Assembly (NCBI GenBank): GCA_027924025.1
Contig: AP026970.1
Span: 2,998,501 to 3,062,500, forward strand
DNA from: Comamonadaceae bacterium OS-4
GTDB lineage: Bacteria; Pseudomonadota; Gammaproteobacteria; Burkholderiales; Burkholderiaceae_C
Direction: 5' to 3'
Length of the DNA stretch: 64,000 bases
Program-made: the position numbers and the translations under genes
Notes under the pieces: model-generated
Told to the model about the DNA's origin: nothing
What the model saw: the letters and a program-made list of their open reading frames with translations, nothing else
Database searches by the model: none
Shown here: in pieces, positions 4,824-49,776 of the stretch
Position numbering within the stretch: the stretch's first letter is position 1
How the letters are laid out: each line of letters starts with the position of its first letter

Positions 4824-5033
4824 ATGACGATGGACTCTCCGATGTTGGAAAAGCTGGTGCGCTGCCCCGCTTGTGGTGGCGATAGCGTTTACGGACCGCG
4901 CAATCTGTTTCGCCCTTTTTGCAGCGAGCGTTGCAAAAACCTGGACTTGGGTGCTTGGGCGAGCGAGTCGTTCCGAGTGCCCACTGAGGCACCACCCGAC
5001 GAGGTGCCCTTCGGCGACCCGAAACTACAGTAA
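4824..5033 (+). CDS. yacG: DNA gyrase inhibitor YacG (zinc protein)
   Basis: Small zinc-binding protein; in E. coli YacG binds GyrB and inhibits gyrase. It has 69 residues with four cysteines at 14, 17, 33 and 37 in the family pattern CPAC ... CSERC, followed by the DLG-W segment typical of YacG. A second in-frame ATG at residue 3 is possible. It ends one base before the stop of the convergent NUDIX gene. Confidence 0.93.
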   Translation: MTMDSPMLEKLVRCPACGGDSVYGPRNLFRPFCSERCKNLDLGAWASESFRVPTEAPPDEVPFGDPKLQ

Positions 5034-5034
5034 A

Positions 5035-5544
5035 TCAGCTAATCACCGGCGCAGAATCTGCGCTGGATGCTCCTGAAATAGTAGCACCCATATGGTTGCG
5101 CTCGGCGGCAAACCAGTCAAGAACCGGGATGGTGCCCGGCAAAACAGGTTCTACTGCTACCGGGAGCTGCTGCCATGCAAAGCTTTGCGATTCCCGCATT
5201 TCCAGCTCGCCATTCCACTCAAAGACTTTGCAAAAGTGCAGACGCACCAGCGCGTGCGGGTAGTCGACCATTTCAACCCGCCAAGGTACAACAGGGCCAA
5301 TGTGGATGCCGATTTCTTCTGTGAGCTCACGACGCAGCGCCTGCTCAATGGTTTCACCCGCCTCGACCTTGCCGCCGGGGAACTCCCAATAGCCTGCGTA
5401 AGGCTTGCCCTGCGGCCTGGATGTCAACAGAAACGCGCCATCCGGGCGGACCAGAACGCCCACGGCCACGTCGACAGCAGGACGGTCTGCACTGCCCGTG
5501 CGTTGGGCTTGCGGATCGGCGACCAATGGGTTGGATGCCGTCAC
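5035..5544 (-). CDS. NUDIX hydrolase, MutT-like (8-oxo-dGTP diphosphatase type)
   Basis: Probable nucleotide-pool sanitising pyrophosphatase. It has 169 residues. The Nudix box is complete at residues 58-80 (G58, E64, R72-E73, E76-E77, G79), preceded by the YWEFPGGK strand typical of MutT. Its ATG overlaps the stop of the upstream DUF815 ATPase gene (ATGA), so the two are probably co-translated. The last 18 or so codons after the Nudix fold run through a sequence (5069-5085) that resembles the interspersed repeat listed below, so the C-terminal tail may be a lineage-specific addition. Confidence 0.88.
   Translation of the reverse strand: MTASNPLVADPQAQRTGSADRPAVDVAVGVLVRPDGAFLLTSRPQGKPYAGYWEFPGGKVEAGETIEQALRRELTEEIGIHIGPVVPWRVEMVDYPHALVRLHFCKVFEWNGELEMRESQSFAWQQLPVAVEPVLPGTIPVLDWFAAERNHMGATISGASSADSAPVIS
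5069..5085 (-). repeat. Probable partial copy of interspersed AT-core repeat, inside the NUDIX gene
   Basis: On the minus strand this reads GCTACTATTTCAGGAGC. It shares GCTACTATTT with the copy at 48634-48671. It lies in the 3' end of the NUDIX gene and is read as part of its C-terminal tail. The match is short, so membership of the repeat family is tentative. Confidence 0.4.
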
Positions 5545-16619: not shown

Positions 16620-16662
16620 AGCAGGATTTGCTACATTTTCAATAGCAAATCCTGCTTGTTTT
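16620..16662 (+). terminator. Strong Rho-independent terminator after mscL
   Basis: A perfect 14-bp stem (AGCAGGATTTGCTA with its complement) and a 9-base loop are followed by TGTTTT. It lies 7 bases after the mscL stop and points to the convergent pdxA end, so it may work for both strands. The stem centre (TTTGCTA ... TAGCAAA) resembles the core of the interspersed repeat. Confidence 0.8.
16628..16650 (+). repeat. Repeat-like core inside the mscL terminator
   Basis: TTTGCTAC, an AT core and ATAGCAAAT resemble the TTTGCTAT...GATAGC core of the copies at 23287 and 30812. The hairpin of this copy forms the upper stem of the mscL terminator. Confidence 0.4.
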
Positions 16663-16681
16663 ATAAGGGCCTTGCGCTCAT

Positions 16682-17728
16682 TCAACGGATCTTTACGAGA
16701 CGTTTCGCGGTATCAACCGCCTCCAATAGGCTTCGGTAATCCGCAACACCGCGGCCCGCAATATCAAAAGCGGTTCCGTGATCCGGGCTGGTGCGAACCA
16801 GAGGCAGCCCTAAGGTCACATTCACACCCTGCTCCACGCCCAAGTATTTGACAGGGATGAGCCCTTGGTCGTGGTACATGGCCACCACCACATCAAATTC
16901 GCCAGGGTGGTCGTCTGTATTCCTGGCGCGCATAAAAACAGTATCAGGTGCGATAGGGCCGTAGATATCTGCCCCCTCAGACCTGACCGCCGCGATGGCG
17001 GGTGCGATGGTCTCGATCTCCTCTTGCCCAAACAGCCCGCCCTCACCCGCATGCGGATTCAGACCCGCGACAGCAATGCGTGGCTCACGGCCTAAGGCAT
17101 TGCGCAGAGCGACTCGGGTAATTCTCAGCGTGTCGACGATATTTTCGAAGGTGATCGCCTCCAGGGCCTTTCGGAGTGATACGTGGATGCTCACCAGCAC
17201 CGTGCGCAACTCATGGTTGGCCAGCATCATCCGCACCGGCATCTCGTCAATCGATAGCCCTTGGGCATTCGCGGCGCGCGCCTGCAGCAACTCAGTATGC
17301 CCCGGGTATGCGTTGTAAGGCGCACCTGCGGCACTCATCGCTTCTTTGTGCAAGGGGGCTGTCACTATCGCAGCGACTTCTCCACGCAACGCCGCATCTG
17401 CCGCCCAGACGACGCATCGGCCGGCGAACTCGCCCGCTGCCGCACTCACCATGCCATAGGGCGCCTCAGGGAGCGCCGGGCCGACCTGGAGCACAGGAAT
17501 ACACCCGGGTGGAATACGGTCCATGTCATCCGGTGTGGTCAGTACTGCCACGGGTGCCACTAGCCCGCCCTCCGCGACCAAGCGGCTGGCGCGCCGCATG
17601 GCTTGCACGTCCCCTGCAACCAAACAGTCCCGCATCAGCGCTGGCGCCTGCTGGTAACACCGGGCAATGATTTCGGGCCCGATTCCGGCCGCATCACCAA
17701 GAGTGATCGCTATCCAAGGAGTTGTCAT
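16682..17728 (-). CDS. pdxA: 4-hydroxythreonine-4-phosphate dehydrogenase PdxA
   Basis: NAD-dependent enzyme of the DXP-dependent pyridoxal phosphate pathway. It has 348 residues. Metal-ligand histidines are seen in GHTELL, NPHAGEGG and MYHDQGLIP, all hallmark PdxA motifs. The N-terminal ITLGDAAGIGPEI is also typical. The start ATG overlaps the stop of the upstream Nif3-like gene by 4 bases, so the two are coupled. In many proteobacteria pdxA sits with ksgA instead, so this linkage is a lineage feature. Confidence 0.95.
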   Translation of the reverse strand: MTTPWIAITLGDAAGIGPEIIARCYQQAPALMRDCLVAGDVQAMRRASRLVAEGGLVAPVAVLTTPDDMDRIPPGCIPVLQVGPALPEAPYGMVSAAAGEFAGRCVVWAADAALRGEVAAIVTAPLHKEAMSAAGAPYNAYPGHTELLQARAANAQGLSIDEMPVRMMLANHELRTVLVSIHVSLRKALEAITFENIVDTLRITRVALRNALGREPRIAVAGLNPHAGEGGLFGQEEIETIAPAIAAVRSEGADIYGPIAPDTVFMRARNTDDHPGEFDVVVAMYHDQGLIPVKYLGVEQGVNVTLGLPLVRTSPDHGTAFDIAGRGVADYRSLLEAVDTAKRLVKIR

Positions 17729-22873: not shown

Positions 22874-23287
22874 TTACTTATAAATGGATTCAGGGTCTTT
22901 GAGCACCGGGTCTACCGCTTGCCAGACACCGTCCTTCAGCACACTGAAGAAACAGCTGTGGCGGCCGGTGTGGCAAGCGATACCGGGCTCATGACCCAGC
23001 TGGGTCACCTTGAGCAAGATAACGTCACTGTCACAGTCCATACGGATCTCATGGACTTTCTGCACATGGCCGGACTCTTCGCCTTTGAACCAGAGCTTGT
23101 CGCGCGAACGGCTGAAATACACCGCCTGACCGAGCTCTACGGTTTTCTGCAGCGCCTCCCGGTTCATCCAGGCAAACATCAGCACATCACCCGTGGTTTG
23201 CTCTTGCGCAATGACAGGCACCAAGCCTTTGGAGTCCCAACGGATGTGCTTGATCCAGCTCACTGGGGGGGTATTTTGAGATTCCAT
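22874..23287 (-). CDS. hisI: Phosphoribosyl-AMP cyclohydrolase HisI
   Basis: Third step of histidine synthesis, opening the adenine ring of phosphoribosyl-AMP. It has 137 residues, with the zinc and magnesium sites in [10 protein letters not shown] and [13 protein letters not shown]. The ATG at 23287 lies at the edge of an interspersed repeat that fills the gap to hisF, so its leader is repeat-derived. Confidence 0.95.
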
Positions 23288-23338
23288 TTGCTATATTTTT
23301 GATAGCTGCTCGCGCAGCGTTATTGGGCGCCAGAGCCC
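23287..23338 (+). repeat. Interspersed AT-core repeat between hisF and hisI
   Basis: Begins TTTGCTATATTTTTGATAGC, continues with a GCTCGCGCAGCG arm and ends near GGGCGCCAGAGCC. It aligns with the minus-strand copy at 30812-30864 over almost its whole length with small gaps. It fills nearly the whole 59-base hisF-hisI gap and abuts the hisI start codon. Confidence 0.65.
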
Positions 23339-23346
23339 TAAATGGC

Positions 23347-24126
23347 TTAAATTCTGACCGGGATACCCCGCTCCGCCATACGCGCTTTCGCCTGGCCCAC
23401 CGTGTATTCGCCGTAGTGGAAGATGCTGGCAGCCAGCACTGCATCGGCGCCGCCCTGCTGCACGCCATCTGCCAAGTGGTCTAGATTGCCCACGCCGCCG
23501 CTGGCAATCACCGGCACGCTGATCGCATCAGCCACCGCGCGGGTCAGGGCCAAATCAAAGCCACTCTTGGTGCCATCACGGTCCATGCTGGTGAGCAAGA
23601 TCTCGCCGGCACCGCGGCGCGCCATCTCCGTGGCCCACACCACGGCATCCAGCCCCGTGTTTTTACGGCCGCCGTGGCTGTACACATCCCAGCCCGCGCC
23701 GCGGGTGGCTGCGTCTTCGGCGGACCGGCGCTTGGCGTCAATCGCCACCACAATCGCCTGCGAGCCGTATTTGAGCGATGCGTCTTCAATCACCTGCGGA
23801 TTGGCCAAGGCCGCCGAGTTGAAACTCACTTTGTCGGCACCTGCGTTCAGCAGGCGGCGCACGTCCTCGACCACCCGCACGCCGCCACCCACGGTAAGCG
23901 GAATGAACACTTGCGAAGCCACCGCCTCGATGATGTGCAGAATCAAATCCCGCCCATCACTGGTAGCCGTGATATCGAGAAACGTGAGTTCGTCAGCGCC
24001 CTGGTCGTTGTAGCGGGCGGCGATTTCCACCGGGTCACCGGCGTCACGCAGCTCAACAAAGTTGACGCCTTTGACGACGCGACCGCCGGTCACGTCCAGG
24101 CAAGGAATGATGCGTTTGGCTAGCAT
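23347..24126 (-). CDS. hisF: Imidazole glycerol phosphate synthase subunit HisF
   Basis: Cyclase subunit that uses ammonia from HisH to close the imidazole ring. It has 259 residues in a TIM barrel, with catalytic Asp in IIPCLDV near residue 11 and in the LTSMDRDGT loop. Phosphate-binding glycines are in VGGGVR and IASGGVG. The ATG overlaps the hisA stop by one base. Confidence 0.96.
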
Positions 24127-26216: not shown

Positions 26217-27361
26217 AGGGTTTCCTGCAAGGCCTGAATCAATCGGGCGTTTTCTTCGGCGGTGCCGACGGTCAAACGCAAACAGCGGGCCAGCAATGGA
26301 TGCATTTTAGAAACGTTCTTGACCAGCACCCCGCGCGCCTTCAAACCGTCGAATATTTTTTGGGCGGCATCTTCCGCGCCGGGAAAGCGCACCAGCACCA
26401 TGTTGGCATCGCTATCCCAGGCCTTCACGCCGGGCATGGCGCGCAACGCTCCTAAAAGAATAGCGCGCTGCGCACATATCTCTTGGGCTTGCACCGCAAA
26501 AGCATCTTGATGGTCCAAAGCAAACAAGGCGCACTCGTAGTTCAGCACGCTGATGTTGTACGGCGGGCGCACTTTGTCGACTTGGGCAATCAGCGCAGCC
26601 GGCCCCACCATGTAGCCTAGGCGCACACCGGCCAGGCCGAACTTGCTCAGGGTACGCATCAGCACCACATGGGGGTGGGCGGCGGGGTTCGCGCGGATCA
26701 CATCCATGTAGGTGCGGCTGGAAAAAGGCTGGTAGGCCTCGTCCACCGCCACGATACTGCCCGCTTGCTTGGCTGCGGCAATCACGGTGGCCATGGCATC
26801 GGCATCCCACAAATTGGCGGTGGGGTTATTGGGGTAGGCCAAGTACACGATGGCAGGCTGCTTCTCGGCAATCGCCTGCACCATGGCGGGCACATCGAGC
26901 GCAAAGTCGTCGGTCAGCGGCACGCCCACAAAGTCCAACCCCTGCAACTGGGCGCTCATGGCGTACATCACAAAGCCGGGTGTGGGCGCCAGCACCACAG
27001 GCCGGGCCTCGCTGGGCTGAGCGGGTACGTCGCAGGCCATCGAGAGCAGAGAGATCAGCTCGTCCGAGCCATTGCCCAACATGATGTCGTGGCCCGCGGG
27101 CATGCCCACGTACTGGGCCAAGGCGGTTCGCAGGTCGTTGACCCGGCCATCGGGGTAGCGGTTCAGGGCCAGCGCGCCCAGGCGTTGGCCCAACTCGGCT
27201 TGCAGGTGGGGTGGCAAAGAAAACGGGTTCTCCATGGCGTCGAGCTTGACCATGCCCTTGGAGTCCTGGACCGCGTAGGCATGCATGCCTTGCACGTCCT
27301 GGCGGATGCGGCGCGCAATCAGCGCCTGAACGTCAGCAGCAAAGTCGGCAGAGGTTGTCAT
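26213..27361 (-). CDS. hisC: Histidinol-phosphate aminotransferase HisC
   Basis: PLP-dependent class I/II aminotransferase. It has 382 residues. The PLP lysine is in [14 protein letters not shown], and substrate-binding features include [12 protein letters not shown] and VDEAYQPF. It is the first of the distal his block and sits 18 bases behind a VapC-like gene rather than behind hisD, so its transcription may start from the toxin-antitoxin promoter. Confidence 0.95.
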
Positions 27362-29539: not shown

Positions 29540-30856
29540 TTACTTCAATCGCATTTCCGCCGCACGTGCATGGGCTTGCAAGCCCTCGCCGTGGGCCAGC
29601 ACCGAGGCGATCTGCCCCAATGCTTGGGCGCCCTGCTCGCTCACTTCGATCAGACTGCTGCGCTTCTGGAAGTCATACACCCCCAGCGGGCTGCTGAAAC
29701 GCGCGGTACCGCTGGTGGGCAGCACGTGGTTGGGGCCAGCGCAATAGTCGCCCAGGCTCTCGGAGGTGTAGGCCCCCAAAAAGATGGCACCGGCGTGCTT
29801 TAGCAACGGCTCCCATTTGTGGGGGTCATTGCTGGAGACTTCCAGGTGCTCGGGCGCGATGCGGTTGCTGATCTCGCACGCCTCTTCCATGCTGCGGGTC
29901 TGGATCAGCGCGCCACGGCCGGTGAGGCTCTTGGCGATGATCTCGGCGCGCGGCATTTCGGGTAGCAGGCGGTTGATGCTCTGTTGCACTTGCTCGATGT
30001 AGGCAGCGTCAGGGCACAGCAAAATGCTTTGCGCCAGCTCGTCGTGCTCAGCCTGGCTGAACAGGTCCATCGCCACCCAGTCCGGCGGTGTGGTGCCGTC
30101 TGCCAGCACCAGAATCTCGCTGGGGCCGGCAATCATGTCGATGCCCACGGTGCCGAACACGCGGCGCTTGGCGGCGGCCACGTAGGCGTTGCCGGGGCCG
30201 GTGATTTTGTGCACGGCAGGAATGGTGGCGGTGCCATAAGCCAATGCGGCCACCGCTTGCGCGCCGCCGATGGTGAAAGCGCGGGTTACGCCGGCCACAT
30301 AGGCGGCAGCCAGCACCAAGGCGTTTTTCTCGCCCTTGGGGGTGGGTACGACCATGATGATTTCGCCGACCCCTGCTACATGGGCGGGGATGGCATTCAT
30401 CAGCACACTGCTGGGGTAAGCCGCTTTGCCGCCAGGCACATAAATGCCCACGCGGTCCAGCGGCGTGACCTTTTGGCCCAAGAGCGTGCCGTCTTCGTCG
30501 CGGTAGGTCCAGCTCTCGCCGGAGGCCTTCTTTTGGGCTTCGTGGTAGCTGCGCACCCGCTTTGCGGCGGCCTCCAGCGCAGCGCGCTGGTCGGCGGGAA
30601 TGCTGTCGAATGCCGCTTTGAGCTCGGCCTGGGTCAGCTCCAGCGCCTTCATGTCGGTGGCGCTCAGGCCATCGAAACGGGCGGTGTACTCCAGCACCGC
30701 AGCATCACCGCGCTGCTGCACGTCGGCCAGGATATCGGCCACGCGCTGCTCGATGGCGGCATCGGTGTCCGCAGACCAATGCAGGCGCGCCTTGAATTCA
30801 GCCTCAAAAGTGGCGCTAGCGCTTGATAAACGTGCGGGAGCAGCTACAAAAGTCAT
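29540..30856 (-). CDS. hisD: Histidinol dehydrogenase HisD
   Basis: Catalyses the last two oxidations to histidine, zinc and NAD dependent. It has 438 residues. Conserved blocks seen are [40 protein letters not shown] and the C-terminal [14 protein letters not shown]. The first 17 or so codons, including the ATG, coincide with an interspersed repeat copy at 30812-30864. hisG lies 19 bases upstream. Confidence 0.96.
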
Positions 30857-30864
30857 AGCAAATG
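30812..30864 (-). repeat. Interspersed AT-core repeat covering the hisD start codon
   Basis: On the minus strand it starts CATTTGCTATGACTTTTGTA and ends AAGCGCTAGCGCC, parallel to the plus-strand copy at 23287-23338. The hisD ATG is the TATG within the repeat core, so the repeat encodes about the first 15 residues ([15 protein letters not shown]). Confidence 0.65.
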
Positions 30865-30875
30865 GGGTTCCGGAG

Positions 30876-31526
30876 TTACTGGCCTACGGCGCCGGCAAAG
30901 GCGTCGATGATCTTGCGGATGGGTTCTTGTTTGAGCTTGAGCGCAGCCTGGTTCACCACCAAACGGGAGCTGATGTCCATGATGCGCTCCACCTCGACGA
31001 GGTGATTGGCCTTGAGGGTATTGCCGGTGGAGACCAGATCCACAATCGCATCGGCCAGGCCGACCAAGGGCGCCAACTCCATGCTGCCGTAGAGCTTGAT
31101 CAAATCCACGTGCACGCCCTTGCTGGCGAAAAACTCGCGGGCAATCGCCACGTACTTGGTAGCCACTTTAAGGCGGGAGCCCTGTTTGACGGCCGACGCG
31201 TAGTCAAAGTCCGCACGCACCGCCACGCTGATGCGGCACTTGGCGATCTGCAAATCCAGCGGCTGGTACAGGCCTTGGCTGCCGTGCTCCAGCAAAGTGT
31301 CTTTGCCGGTAATGCCGAGGTCGGCACCACCGTACTGCACATAGGTGGGCACGTCGGTCGCGCGCACCACCAACACGCGGACGTTGGGCTGGTTGGTGTC
31401 CAGAATCAGTTTGCGGGACTTCTCGGGGTCGTCCAGCACCTCAATGCCCGCGGCTTTAAGCAGCGGCACGGTTTCTTCAAAAATACGGCCTTTGGACAGG
31501 GCCAGGGTGATCATGTCTGCGCTCAT
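30876..31526 (-). CDS. hisG: ATP phosphoribosyltransferase catalytic subunit, short form HisG
   Basis: First and regulated step of histidine synthesis. The start at 31526 ([14 protein letters not shown]) gives 216 residues; Met5 is an alternative. The length and lack of the C-terminal ACT-like domain mark the short form, which in characterised bacteria needs a HisZ regulatory subunit; hisZ is not in this window. The phosphoribosyl site is seen near [18 protein letters not shown]. It starts 26 bases after the BolA-like gene. Confidence 0.95.
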
Positions 31527-31552
31527 GGCGGGCTCTCGGAGTTGCGTGCGCC

Positions 31553-31795
31553 TCAGGCGGACTGGGCTGCCCATTCGGTGGGCGAGAAAGTTTTCATGGA
31601 CAAGGCGTGTACCTCGTCGGTTTGCATGCGGTTGCCCAAGGTGGCGTACACCAAGCGCTGGCGCTGGACAAGGCGTTTGCCTTCGAATTCAGGCGACACG
31701 ATGGTGGCGTACCAGTGGCGGCCATCGCCTTCGAGCGCGCAATGGTCACAGGCGAGGCCTGCAGTGATAAGGGCTTGGAGTTGGTCTGCGGTCAT
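31553..31795 (-). CDS. BolA-family protein (IbaG-like)
   Basis: Small 80-residue protein beginning at 31795 (MTADQLQAL). It has the BolA-fold helix-strand pattern, with [22 protein letters not shown] and a C-terminal [14 protein letters not shown] containing the conserved His of the Fe-S/glutaredoxin-binding site. In E. coli ibaG lies after mlaB, just as this gene lies downstream of the mla and ABC genes. The murA gene that often follows ibaG is missing here. Confidence 0.9.
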
Positions 31796-38864: not shown

Positions 38865-43637
<4,773 letters not shown>

Positions 43638-43697: not shown

Positions 43698-43708
43698 GAT
43701 TTTTAAAC

Positions 43709-43721
43709 GGGGTCTGACCCC
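43709..43721. repeat. GGGGTC palindrome flanking the Y1 transposase
   Basis: GGGGTCTGACCCC is a 5-bp-arm dyad set in a wider AT-rich symmetry (TTTAAAC ... ATTTAAA). A further GGGGTC occurs at 43758-43763. Such GGGGTC dyads next to Y1 transposase genes look like REP-type elements mobilised by RAYTs. It lies 12 bases upstream of the gltB sigma-54 site. Confidence 0.5.
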
Positions 43722-43762
43722 ATTTAAATTAAGCCAAAATGACGTCTGAATTTATTGGGGTC

Positions 43763-43797
43763 ATATCAATTTGATAGCAATGAGCGCTTTATTTACC
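43763..43797 (+). repeat. Degenerate AT-core repeat copy downstream of the transposase
   Basis: ATATCAATTTGATAGCAATGAGCGC followed by TTTATT resembles the GATAGC-GCTCGCGC-GTTATT order of the copy at 23287. It is more divergent than the others and could be coincidental. Confidence 0.35.
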
Positions 43798-43817
43798 TAC
43801 GCAAAGACACTATTTGA

Positions 43818-44510
43818 CTAAGTTTTAACGTGGAGAGCTGGCCGACCGGGAGCTTTTTTAGTGAGTCGACGGGCGCTGTTTTTTTGCAAATCTGCGACAA
43901 ATGCAGCATCGCCCAAGGCCCATCCACCGATCACAGCGTCGGTGATTTCACCCAATTGCACTGAATTGAGGCCCTCTCGCACCGCGGCTTGGTACTGCGC
44001 CTCCCGGGCAAACGGGGTATTGCCTAAACCCCAATACGCCGGATGTGTCGCAATGCGCTTGTCCACCCGGGCGCCGCTGTAATGGGCATGGGTCGACCAC
44101 GCATAGTCTGCCGGCCCGGCCCCCTCACCGTGTCGCAGGGCATGGGTATCGAAGTAGGTCAACACAGGTAGCAAATAGCGCGGCTGCAACACAGCCGATT
44201 TAAACCGCCCTTCCCACAGGGTGCCGCGGCGATCGTATTTGCTGTTGAAGTACCTGACATAGCTGCGACCCAAAGCCTGCATCAAGCCCGGCAAGCCCTC
44301 TGCACTCGCGGGCGTTACGAGCAAATGGAAATGATCTGCCAAGACCACATAGCCATGCACTGCGACGTGATTCGCCTCGGCAGCGCTGTAAAGCGCGCTC
44401 AGGAACGCGTCAAAATCCTCCGTATCCCGGCATACCGCTTGGCCATGGGCCCCGCGCTGCAACACATGGTGCAAGTGCCCTGCAATCGATAGTCTTGGAA
44501 GTCGTGCCAT
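43818..44510 (-). CDS. REP-associated Y1 (IS200-like HUH) transposase, RAYT
   Basis: Single-strand DNA transposase-like protein of 230 residues. The HUH metal motif is HFHLLVTP (about residues 60-67). The catalytic tyrosine is likely in the SYVRYFNSKYDRRGTLWEGRFKS block, which with the N-terminal ARLPRLSIAGHLHHVLQRG is diagnostic of REP-associated tyrosine transposases. The gene appears intact. GGGGTC palindromes lie on its 3' side; I found no matching dyad on its 5' side. Confidence 0.9.
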   Translation of the reverse strand: MARLPRLSIAGHLHHVLQRGAHGQAVCRDTEDFDAFLSALYSAAEANHVAVHGYVVLADHFHLLVTPASAEGLPGLMQALGRSYVRYFNSKYDRRGTLWEGRFKSAVLQPRYLLPVLTYFDTHALRHGEGAGPADYAWSTHAHYSGARVDKRIATHPAYWGLGNTPFAREAQYQAAVREGLNSVQLGEITDAVIGGWALGDAAFVADLQKNSARRLTKKAPGRPALHVKT

Positions 44511-46845: not shown

Positions 46846-47447
46846 GTCGTTTCTTCGGGATGGGGGCCCGCAGCAGGGTGAGCCGCCACATCGAGCGCCG
46901 CCCACCCCTCTGCGCCAAGGGCCTCGAGGGTGGCAATATTGCGAGCATAGATCTGCTCAGCGTCGGGAAAGGCCTCGACGGCTTTGTCAATGCTGGCCTC
47001 GCGCAGCAGGTGCAATATCGGATATGGGGCGCGATTGGTGAAGTTGCCGATGTCGTCCGGCTCTGCATCGGCAAACTGAAAATCCGGGTGAAAACTGGCG
47101 ATCTGCAAATCGCCACTGAGCTTGAGCTTGCGCAGCAATTTGTCGGCGGGGTACAAAAAGTCATTAAACGCCAAAAACTCTGCCAGTGCGTCAGGCAATA
47201 TCAGGAGCGTGGTGTCTCGGGTCACGGCCGAACTGGCTTGCAGGGCGAGCAACTCCGTCTGCAAGACCTCCAACACATCTGCCGGCGCGATTTCCCGGCA
47301 CACCACATAGTGCACTTGGTTCTTGACGTAAACAGCCTTCGCAAACGGGCACAGATTGAGCCCGATCACCGCGCGCTCTAGCCACTGCCTGGTACGCGCG
47401 ATCACTACATCATCTGTTTGCGGGCCAAGGCGGGAGGGTTCAGACAT
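46842..47447 (-). CDS. DUF1415 family protein
   Basis: A 201-residue cytoplasmic protein of unknown function. The N-terminal WLERAVIGLNLCPFAKAV and the DFQFADAEPDDIGNFTNRAPYP block are the hallmarks of DUF1415. It overlaps the dGTPase-like gene by 8 bases upstream and the methyltransferase by 4 bases downstream, so the three are likely co-expressed. Confidence 0.88.
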   Translation of the reverse strand: MSEPSRLGPQTDDVVIARTRQWLERAVIGLNLCPFAKAVYVKNQVHYVVCREIAPADVLEVLQTELLALQASSAVTRDTTLLILPDALAEFLAFNDFLYPADKLLRKLKLSGDLQIASFHPDFQFADAEPDDIGNFTNRAPYPILHLLREASIDKAVEAFPDAEQIYARNIATLEALGAEGWAALDVAAHPAAGPHPEETT

Positions 47448-48612
47448 GAATCAAGGTCTTTCCGGTCAAGCGGGCGTGCTCGCGCAAGGCAAAGCGGTCG
47501 GTCATACCCGCAATATGGTCACTGACCCGCCGCTGAAGCGTGATCTCAGCCGCAGGCTCGCTGTCCTGGCGCATTTCAGCCGGCGTCTCCAGATAGGCAT
47601 CAAAAAGATCACGTATCACCTGCTTGGCCTTGTTCATCGTGTCCATCACCTGGTCGTGGCGGTAGAGGTGGTCAAAGAGAAATTTTTTCAACTCACGGGT
47701 TTCCGCCCGCATGCCGGGGCTGAACAACACCAAGGGCTTTGCAGCACGCACCTCCACCACATTTGCTGGCCGGCTCTCTGCCAATTGGGCTTGGGTCGTT
47801 TTCAGTACGTCGTAGACCATGTCGCTCAGCATCAAGCGGATGGACTCGTACAGCCAACGCCGCTGCTGTGGAGGCTGCGCCAGTTGCGCATGTTGTGTGA
47901 GCGCTTGGCGGGCGTAGCGCGAAAACAGGGGCACCTCCAGCATTTGCTCCAGCAGCAGCAGACCGGACCGGACACCATCGTCAATATCGTGGCAGTTGTA
48001 GGCGATTTCATCGGCCAGATTGCAGAGCTGAGCCTCGAGACTCGGTTGCCCGCCATTCAGGAATCTGCGGGCGACACCGGCAGCTGCAGAAGGAAAGTCG
48101 ACCTCGGCCTGCTCCAGCGCGTGGGCATTGGTACGGGAGCAGTGCTTCAAGATGCCTTCGCGAGACTCAAAGCATAAATTAAGGCCATCAAACTGGGGAT
48201 ACCGCGCCTCCAGGTGGTCCACGACCCGCAGACTTTGCAGGTTATGTTCAAAACCACCATATTCAGCCATGCACTCGTGCAGCGCGTCTTGCCCTGCATG
48301 TCCGAAAGGGGTGTGCCCTAGATCATGGGCCAAAGCGATGGTTTCGACCACGTCTTCGTTCAAGCCGAGGGTCCGAGCCATCGATCGCCCCAGCTGCGCA
48401 ACTTCCAGCGAATGCGTAAGGCGGGTGCGAAAGAGGTCGCCTTCGTGGTTGATGAACACCTGTGTCTTGTAGACCAAGCGCCTGAAAGCGGTGGAATGAA
48501 CAATTCGATCCCGGTCCCTTTGAAACGGGGTCCGGGTCGGCGCCGCCTCTTCAGGAAAGCGTCGCCCCCTGCTGGTCTCAGGCAAACAGGCGTAGGGCTG
48601 AAGCTGATCCAT
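47440..48612 (-). CDS. dgt: Deoxyguanosinetriphosphate triphosphohydrolase-like HD protein
   Basis: Hydrolyses dNTPs to nucleosides and triphosphate, tuning the dNTP pool. It has 390 residues. The HD-domain metal ligands are H67 in THSLEVAQ and H96-D97 in ALAHDLGHTPFGH, with a further Asp in the EIAYNCHDIDD block. The length fits the type 2 dGTPase-like subfamily rather than the E. coli Dgt of about 500 residues. It follows aroB after 57 bases that hold a repeat copy. Confidence 0.92.
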   Translation of the reverse strand: MDQLQPYACLPETSRGRRFPEEAAPTRTPFQRDRDRIVHSTAFRRLVYKTQVFINHEGDLFRTRLTHSLEVAQLGRSMARTLGLNEDVVETIALAHDLGHTPFGHAGQDALHECMAEYGGFEHNLQSLRVVDHLEARYPQFDGLNLCFESREGILKHCSRTNAHALEQAEVDFPSAAAGVARRFLNGGQPSLEAQLCNLADEIAYNCHDIDDGVRSGLLLLEQMLEVPLFSRYARQALTQHAQLAQPPQQRRWLYESIRLMLSDMVYDVLKTTQAQLAESRPANVVEVRAAKPLVLFSPGMRAETRELKKFLFDHLYRHDQVMDTMNKAKQVIRDLFDAYLETPAEMRQDSEPAAEITLQRRVSDHIAGMTDRFALREHARLTGKTLIHV

Positions 48613-48633
48613 AGAACTAGACGATTGCCCCTG

Positions 48634-48671
48634 CGATATGTGCGCGAGTAGCTACTATTTTTATAGCAATC
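48634..48671 (-). repeat. Interspersed AT-core repeat between aroB and dgt
   Basis: On the minus strand it starts TTGCTATAAAAATAGTAGCT and continues ACTCGCGCA, matching the core and GCTCGCGCA arm of the other copies. It covers the second base onward of the aroB stop codon region (TGA at 48670-48672). Confidence 0.6.
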
Positions 48672-49776
48672 ACAAACAACAAGCGTTTATCACTTCGCGC
48701 ACAAGCGCATCAGGCGCACTGCGGAGCGCTGCACGCCCCGGGCCATCGATCACTACAAACCGGATTTCACCCGCTTCTGATTTTTTGTCATGCCGCATCA
48801 AATCAAGATAGGCGCTGGCGTTGTCGACGGCATGGAGCAGCGGCGCTTTGACGGGCAAACCAGCGGCGGCGATCAAGCGCGTCAGTCGGGCCACAAAAGC
48901 ATCATCGACCAAACCCAGACGCTCTGACAAGGTTGCGGCCATGACCATTCCGCATCCGACGGCCTCACCGTGCAACCACTCCCCATACCCCAAGCCCGCC
49001 TCGATGGCATGGCCAAAGGTATGACCGAAGTTCAATATGGCGCGAAGCCCAGACTCACGCTCGTCTTGCCCAACAACCCAAGCCTTGATTTCACAACTCC
49101 GCTTCACCGCATGCGCCAGTGTGACGCTGTCCAGACTGACCAAATTCTCGATGTTGGCTTCGATCCAATCGAAAAACTCCATGTCAGCGATAGGTCCGTA
49201 TTTGATAACTTCGGCCAGACCAGCGCTCACCTCCCGAGCGGGCAAGGTGCCCAAGGTCGCCAAGTCACACAGCACCATCTGTGGCTGATAGAAAGCGCCC
49301 ACCATGTTTTTGCCGAGTGGATGGTTGATGCCCGTTTTGCCACCCACCGACGAATCCACCTGAGCGAGCAAGGTCGTAGGCACCTGCACAAAAGGCACAC
49401 CACGCATATAGCTCGCTGCTGCGAAACCTGTCATGTCTCCCACTACACCGCCGCCCAAGGCAAATAGCGTTGTCTTCCGGTCAGCTGTGTTGGCTAGCAA
49501 AACGTCGAAAATTTGATTCAACGTTTCCCAGTGCTTATGGGCCTCACCATCGGGGAGCTCCAAGATCAAAACACGCGCGTAATGGGATGCTAGCCCAGCC
49601 TTCAATTTGGCAACATACAACGGCGCTACCGTTGTGTTGCTCACAATCAGCGCGGTGTGCGCACCGGGTAAGTCGGAGAAGACGGACTCACTGACCAAAA
49701 GATCGTGGCCAATGTGAATGGGGTAGCTTCGCTCTTCAAGCGAAATGTGAACCGTGTGAAGCACTTGCGTAGTCAT
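48670..49776 (-). CDS. aroB: 3-dehydroquinate synthase AroB
   Basis: Second step of the shikimate pathway, converting DAHP to dehydroquinate with NAD and a divalent metal. It has 368 residues. NAD-binding motifs are [11 protein letters not shown] and [20 protein letters not shown], and the metal site is around [11 protein letters not shown] and the Glu of the preceding helix. It follows aroK by 46 bases. The stop lies at the edge of a repeat copy. Confidence 0.96.

Follow-up and report, generated by a model that had tools for sequence, protein, structure and literature searches.

A 66-bp repeat, present in three full copies and several decayed ones in the window (the whole analyzed stretch of 64,000 nucleotides from Comamonadaceae bacterium OS-4), belongs to a dispersed family that is confined to the host family in the genomes sampled. 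The sequence comparisons make it somewhat probable that this is a REP-like family of the Comamonadaceae, amplified by a Y1/HUH transposase gene of the TIRYT type and now mostly fixed. Half of the repeat is shared with the flank of the transposase-like gene, which suggests the origin of the repeats. The gene, usually present in a single copy and carried by most Comamonadaceae, would have multiplied the repeat. We infer that its protein would recognize the repeat's right half (RTAGC plus GCTCGCGC-N11-GCGCTAGMGGC-ATTT) as single-stranded DNA and that it made the copies. This right half, also found at the gene's 3' end, would have been copied or inserted for the most part into narrow gaps where genes end. 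In the genus of the window, the spread seems to have come nearly to a halt, with the copies staying in place under sequence constraint.

The link to a co-resident TIRYT gene answers part of the question of origin that a preliminary description of this DNA had left open. TIRYTs are common domesticated Y1 transposases without a clear DNA partner, and the repeat is a candidate for this partner. It shares half of its length with the gene flank and tends to co-occur with the half-site across genera, which makes the partnership testable.

Structure of the repeat

The element consists of TTTGCTAY-N7-RTAGC, GCTCGCGC-N11-GCGCTAGMGGC, and ATTT. Its column profile is based on 77 copies of the genome itself, collected with the pattern TTTGCTAT-N7-ATAGCTGCTCGCGC at no more than 3 mismatches; columns 0 to 7 and 15 to 28 are biased by this search pattern, and the other columns are unbiased. 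The profile shows a sharp left border at TTTGCTAT and near-invariant GCTA and TAGC arms flanking seven bases, with A or T almost exclusively at profile positions 10 to 12 in this center. The arms are followed by GCTCGCGC, 11 variable bases, GCGCTAGMGGC, ATTT, and a weak tail, and the sequence beyond the borders is unconserved. The arm given as GCGCYAGMGCC in the preliminary description has the consensus GCGCTAGMGGC. Positions 15 to 18 are mostly ATAG and less often GTAG, AGAG, and GGAG. Each of the two arms varies independently of the other, with the same choice of letters (GCTMY and RKAGC).

Alternatively, the repeats may serve a host DNA-binding protein as binding sites, and this protein could be the TIRYT protein after losing catalysis. 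Here, a dimer would read the inverted RKAGC half-sites across the AT-rich 7-base center, and the copies would be retained for a task at gene ends, for example in ending transcription or organizing the chromosome. Independent arm variation without covariation and the nearly pure A/T center columns are consistent with such sites, whereas the 45-base right half exceeds a simple operator. This explanation is considered unlikely, and further observations bearing on it are described below.

At a threshold of 10 bits, the window contains 8 matches to the 66-column profile, compared to none when it is read backwards. Over 1.41 Mb (the window, the stretches of six relatives, and 80 named loci), the profile gives 112 places, compared to 0 backwards.

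Copies in the window

The three strong segments of the preliminary description fall into one register and, as stated there, occur on both strands (Table 1). The three weaker segments (5069 to 5085, 16628 to 16650, and 43763 to 43797) turn out to be decayed or half copies, judged by their profile scores and the corresponding sites of relatives; none of them reaches an E value of 1 with the sequence-only model. At 5069 to 5085, the core GCTMY-N7-RTAGC is retained in all five relatives with the locus and the remainder is gone, which favors the binding-site explanation. At the 16.6-kb site, the window's genome (W) and the related genome G362 contain a perfect palindrome that looks like a terminator stem, and G340 contains another, related palindrome. 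The element itself is found there within 4 mismatches in G354 and G386 and in a more diverged form in G217. In the half copy that borders the TIRYT-like gene on its 3' side, the left arm is replaced by the gene's own GGGGTCAT motif.

Table 1. Copies of the 66-bp repeat and neighboring features in the window
Feature	Position	Strand	Remarks
Decayed copy	5023..5088	-	Core GCTAC-N7-GGAGC retained, right half lost; profile 12.2 bits
Decayed copy, now a palindrome	16627..16692	+	TTTGCTAC-N7-ATAGCAAA; profile 23.8 bits
hisI (PRA-CH)	22874..23287	-	
Full copy A	23287..23352	+	Occupies the gap between hisF and hisI, on the other strand than these genes; sequence-only model E 3.6e-15
hisF-like (His_biosynth)	23347..24126	-	hisF name read from family and gene order
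Weak partial copy	26445..26510	+	Profile 16.4 bits; no model match
hisD (histidinol dehydrogenase)	29540..30856	-	
Full copy B	30797..30862	-	Between hisG and hisD, covers hisD start codon; sequence-only model E 4e-13
hisG	30876..31574	-	
Partial copy (right part)	38893..38940	+	Model E 0.0038; profile 26.9 bits
Palindrome	43706..43725		AACGGGGTCTGACCCCATTT; next to the TIRYT-like gene; no other exact occurrence in the genome
Half copy	43759..43824	+	3' end of TIRYT-like gene; GGGGTCATAT-N7-ATAGC; profile 17.0 bits
TIRYT-like Y1/HUH transposase gene	43818..44510	-	230 aa; only PF01797 match in the genome
HD-domain phosphohydrolase-like gene	47440..48612	-	
Full copy C	48605..48670	-	Between aroB and the HD-domain gene; sequence-only model E 2e-11
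aroB (3-dehydroquinate synthase)	48670..49776	-	

Copy B provides the start codon and the first codons of hisD. A profile match of at least 20 bits lies at the copy-B place in 15 of the 80 named hisD loci. In several other hisD proteins of Burkholderiales, the match begins only around residue 9, as though the N terminus of the protein derived from a former copy.

Abundance and distribution

Within the window alone, the 16-base core with no more than 3 mismatches occurs 6 times, little more often than expected by chance (mean of 2.66 in shuffles, 5 of 100 of which reach 6). The preliminary description had named a genome scan with no more hits than in shuffled sequence as grounds against a dispersed small-repeat family. 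In the whole genome, the core occurs at 143 places within 3 mismatches, with 0 in the reversed control, and the family is real. The sequence-only model gives at least 150 matches, every listed one with an E value of at most 8e-10. A single one of the 150 listed matches lies on contig C2 (305 kb, ∼7.5% of the genome). A search of plasmids gave no match to copy A at an E value of 0.1, which is a weak test for 66 bases.

The statement in the preliminary description that similar elements are scattered in Comamonadaceae genomes is borne out. At least one match is found in 91 of 299 genomes of the family, with a maximum of 309 per genome and one control hit over all 299; copy numbers are highest in G064, G243, and G015. 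Profile matches of at least 20 bits are found in 19 of the 80 named hisD loci, including those of Acidovorax, Polaromonas, Rhodoferax, Simplicispira, Paenacidovorax, and Comamonas. Copy numbers vary strongly inside genera, with 137, 0, and 187 copies in genus g72 and 77, 14, and 263 in g40. In a sample of 200 genomes of the order, 195 of them from other families, a single hit occurs in 2 of these 195, compared to 5 control hits. The genome count against its control, the patchy occurrence inside genera, and the control level outside the family support amplification by the TIRYT-type gene. For the binding-site explanation, patchiness inside genera is an unfavorable point, as it suggests amplification at some time.

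The TIRYT-like gene

The only PF01797 (Y1_Tnp) match of the genome is found at 44157 to 44414, inside the open reading frame of the TIRYT-like gene. In NCBIfam, this gene is recognized as a REP-associated tyrosine transposase below the cutoff (40.5 of 80), and two of the three relatives tested, L161 (84.4) and L166 (81.8), pass, with L142 (42.8) failing. The HUH and LWEG motifs are present in all 30 genes examined from 30 genomes and the tyrosine in 28, missing only in G217 and G150. The TIRYT of L161 is among those with an intact tyrosine. GGGGWSAS occurs within 300 bases of the gene, downstream at 23 of 29 loci and upstream at 9 of 29. Together with LWEG and the tyrosine motif, this fits TIRYT or subclass 2.1 genes as characterized in excerpts of PMC3733652 and PMC6006769. 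TIRYT proteins are expected to have a C-terminal helix-turn-helix domain; the proteins here feature a C-terminal extension, and Pfam finds only Y1_Tnp in four of them. Sequence searches of the PDB gave weak matches only, the best being a TnpA transposase with an E value of 0.097.

In the genus of the window, the tyrosine of the Y-x-D-L-N-P motif is replaced by phenylalanine in five of seven genomes (G217, G354, G330, G386, and G340) and retained in W and G362. The asparagine is histidine in all seven, and HUH is retained. Pairwise dN/dS values of the gene among these genomes range from 0.09 to 0.22, and dS exceeds 1 in 17 of the 21 pairs. Catalysis has thus likely been lost in this clade, with the gene, judged by its substitutions, still under selection. 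Such a loss fits the absence of new insertions among the compared copies; W itself retains the tyrosine. For the binding-site explanation, the lost tyrosine and the low dN/dS are favorable points. The loss of the tyrosine while the repeats stay raises the question of whether the protein still has a DNA-binding job. A further, doubtful reading is that, in this genus, TIRYT may have turned into a noncatalytic, selected DNA-binding protein, for which more than 100 copies that it once dispersed to gene ends would serve as binding sites throughout the genome, read by their inverted RKAGC core.

Homologues of the gene occur in 283 of the 299 family genomes, mostly one per genome, with or without repeats. 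Its plain presence or absence is therefore uninformative and was rejected as an explanation of the repeats. A second rejected candidate is GGGGTCWGACCCC as the true dispersed partner of the gene, which has one exact place in the genome and four other listed places with 2 mismatches, compared to 2 control hits. The palindrome at 43706 to 43725 (GGGGTCTGACCCC) sits 3' of the TIRYT-like gene. In relatives, GGGGTCAGATTC and GGGGACACAT are found there, arranged as direct repeats at a distance of about 50 bases.

The half-site beside the gene

In repeat-bearing genomes, GGGACAYAT 3' of the gene is followed at a fixed spacing by RTAGC or RGAGC, which is the start of the repeat's right half. This half-site was scored in 110 genomes, chosen from the better-scoring gene matches with coordinates and not randomly. 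In a first scoring, with loci lacking the anchor counted as negative, the half-site was found in 40 of 50 genomes with at least 5 copies and in 2 of 31 with none. A second scoring, in which the anchor rule was refined after the first (offset 9 added; 4 of 90 loci without an anchor dropped), gave 42 of 48 and 3 of 29. In this second set, the columns to the right of RTAGC also score higher in the repeat-bearing genomes. For 20 further genomes scored with the rule already fixed, of which 3 without an anchor were dropped, the comparison is 3/7 to 0/4, which alone is not significant (p 0.24), and the half-site is present in 5 of 6 genomes with 1 to 4 copies. Pooled, and without correction for relatedness, the half-site is present in 45 of 55 genomes that carry 5 or more repeats, compared to 3 of 33 that carry none.

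The pooled association and the higher-scoring right columns support amplification by TIRYT, as does the location of the only PF01797 gene in the window. The proposal is weakened by the nonsignificant 20-genome set, the uncorrected relatedness, and the 10 of 55 genomes with at least 5 repeats and no half-site (G200, G088, G014, G031, G002, G142, G141, G009, G128, and G027). The half-site without repeats is found in G166, G231, and G008. Half-site and repeats agree in genera g71 and g72, with both lost in G176 and G177, and agree only partly in g89 and g100. A further weakness is the occurrence of the gene regardless of repeats, together with two genomes that have repeats without a clear gene: G256 (32 copies) has a best gene match of only 3e-6, and G270 (23 copies) has none. 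The repeats may outlive the gene.

Placement and orientation

The 77 copies were classified with a home-made codon model trained on 49 open reading frames, which places 50 between genes and 24 overlapping predicted genes (13 on the same strand and 11 on the opposite strand), with 3 unclassified. The intergenic copies lie between codirectional genes on the same strand (20) or the opposite strand (13), between convergent genes (16), and between divergent genes (1). Divergent gaps comprise 1,374 of 4,296 intergenic bases in the window according to the same model. The border of the neighboring gene is at most 20 bases away on the left in 38 of 52 and on the right in 39 of 51 listed distances, and the element often forms the entire intergenic gap. 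The single copy of 77 between divergent genes and the two gene relatives passing the NCBIfam cutoff are further support for amplification by TIRYT.

A replication-strand bias, suggested by eye among the listed matches, was rejected, with model matches of 36+/45- and 27+/41- by replichore (p 0.62; dnaA at C1:1269). Orientations on C1 are mildly clustered, unrelated to replichores (59 runs compared to 73.7 expected, z -2.48, for 149 of 150 listed places, the one on C2 being omitted). Around position 1480 of L119, L120, and L137, from three genomes, copies directly follow the same CGGGCGCCCCAGGGCGCCCG inverted repeat, which is like a terminator stem.

Conservation, mobility, and folding

The window copies were traced in relatives by a scan with at most 4 mismatches and by alignment. 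Copy A is present in all five relatives with the locus, copy B in all six, and copy C in five of six, where G340 retains only a GCTAT-N7-ATAGC core; regional identity is 75 to 93% for the three copies. Across 21 G000/G362 pairs, 16 of 189 positions are different in the conserved columns not covered by the search pattern, compared to 60 of 294 in variable columns (p 5e-4). The flanks, which are mostly coding, differ by ∼6.7%, not significantly below the conserved columns (p 0.37). Individual copies look constrained, or converted. The slower conserved columns would be expected of binding sites, while their rate, no slower than that of the flanks, speaks against such sites.

Most of the compared copies are orthologous in relatives of the same genus. 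Of 30 G362 copies compared with the genome of the window, 21 align across the element, L255 aligns partly, and L242 aligns with a decayed copy. Six (L245, L252, L261, L262, L263, and L265) were matched by eye through core letters and map order. For L268, no element is seen in the own sequence, where the flank on one side does not align. In the other direction, copy L006 of the own genome is also present in G362. Among the copies compared between these two genomes, there is no clean gain by recent insertion. The comparison of occupied and empty sites suggested in the preliminary description gave one clean gap, at site D, where four relatives carry the element, G340 a diverged form, and W and G362 none. 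This gap can be a loss or deletion rather than an empty site. At the orthologous site L247/L193, G362 and the own genome have flanks of 92% identity and elements that are unlike at 19 of 66 positions, possibly through replacement or conversion.

No target duplication was seen at the sites viewed, and the ends of the element (TTTGCTAT and ..ATTT) are not terminal inverted repeats. Both observations, and the half-site association pointing to TIRYT, argue against a MITE that would derive from an insertion sequence of the DDE type and have no relation to TIRYT, in which case the half-site would be an old ordinary insertion. Such an element would likewise be small, dispersed, and patchy across genomes, and this origin is very improbable.

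Stems can be drawn in the repeat, and the letters allow the fold at the core noted in the preliminary description, but no covariation upholds the pairing. Neither mutual information nor pair counts reveal Watson-Crick covariation, pairing cells amount to 78.7% compared to 79.4% in shuffles, and there is no compensatory change; RNA structure is therefore not supported as the conserved property. Slower conserved columns combined with paired columns lacking covariation indicate that the sequence and not the fold is retained. These results also make it improbable that the repeat is an RNA element at gene 3' ends (a terminator, stabilizer, or processing site) arising through repeated convergence or passive spread. 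Placement at gene ends, with almost none between divergent genes, and the terminator-like palindromes at the 16.6-kb site in W, G362, and G340 agree with an RNA element, whereas its occurrence in both orientations relative to genes (20 and 13 between codirectional genes) and an Rfam search of the window, in which a tRNA was the sole match at gathering thresholds, do not. Amplification by TIRYT is itself weakened by the lack of hairpin covariation, of a GT[AG]G foot, of replication-strand bias, and of a clean insertion with an empty site.

Relationship to known systems

No formal description of the repeat family was found in the open-access literature, and work elsewhere may exist. Excerpts of PMC2817692, PMC3733652, PMC6006769, and PMC8049555 describe REP/REPIN sequences with RAYT as short and dispersed, with up to hundreds of copies mostly between codirectional or convergent genes and a single-copy Y1/HUH transposase. 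The repeat shares with them its shortness, dispersal, gap placement, single-copy Y1/HUH gene, and a tetranucleotide before a GC-rich arm. The rarity of REPs between divergent genes reported in an excerpt of PMC3733652 is also found here. In contrast to REPs, the foot is RKAG instead of GT[AG]G, and the repeat, at 66 bp, is built from two unequal halves whose pairing is not retained by covariation. The gene flank contains half an element, as a rule on the 3' side only, instead of two whole repeats, and the gene fits TIRYT and not REP-RAYT. The repeat is not assigned to the GTAG REPs, as its foot and the arrangement at the gene flank do not agree with theirs.

The likeness to TIRYT/TIRtron (TnpAY1 subclass 2.1), as presented in excerpts of PMC3733652 and PMC6006769, lies in gene length, HUH, LWEG, Y-x-D-L-N-P in relatives, GGGGWSAS beside the gene, and betaproteobacterial prevalence. 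Those sources describe TIRYT genes with flanking inverted repeats and TIR families of only moderate abundance, and, according to the excerpt of PMC6006769, the surroundings of subclass 2.1 genes yielded no REP-like sequences. The repeat described here differs in being dispersed, in having only its right half in common with the flank, and in numbering up to 309 copies.

BRE, described in an excerpt of PMC3110155, is likewise short, mostly intergenic, and betaproteobacterial and has also been counted in Comamonadaceae, with 4 copies in Rhodoferax ferrireducens and 29 in Polaromonas JS666. In Bordetella, BRE is 75 to 91 bp long with a mean GC content of 69% and is often in tandem, compared to 66 bp and 43 to 49% GC for the window copies. 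In PMC3686654, the taxon terms sought do not occur.

The repeat family probably explains one, perhaps two, published orphan motifs. An excerpt of PMC5217627 lists GCTTAT-N5-AAGCG from Acidovorax ebreus (114 copies) and ATAGCT-N22-CAAAAG from Polaromonas naphthalenivorans (125 copies) as potential novel motifs, with motif pairs in 44 convergent, 59 co-oriented, and 4 divergent positions. The P. naphthalenivorans pair has no place in the 80 named loci, and that it belongs to the family is only likely. For the A. ebreus pair, all four places in the 80 named loci lie inside the 66-bp repeat, and the placement is the same.
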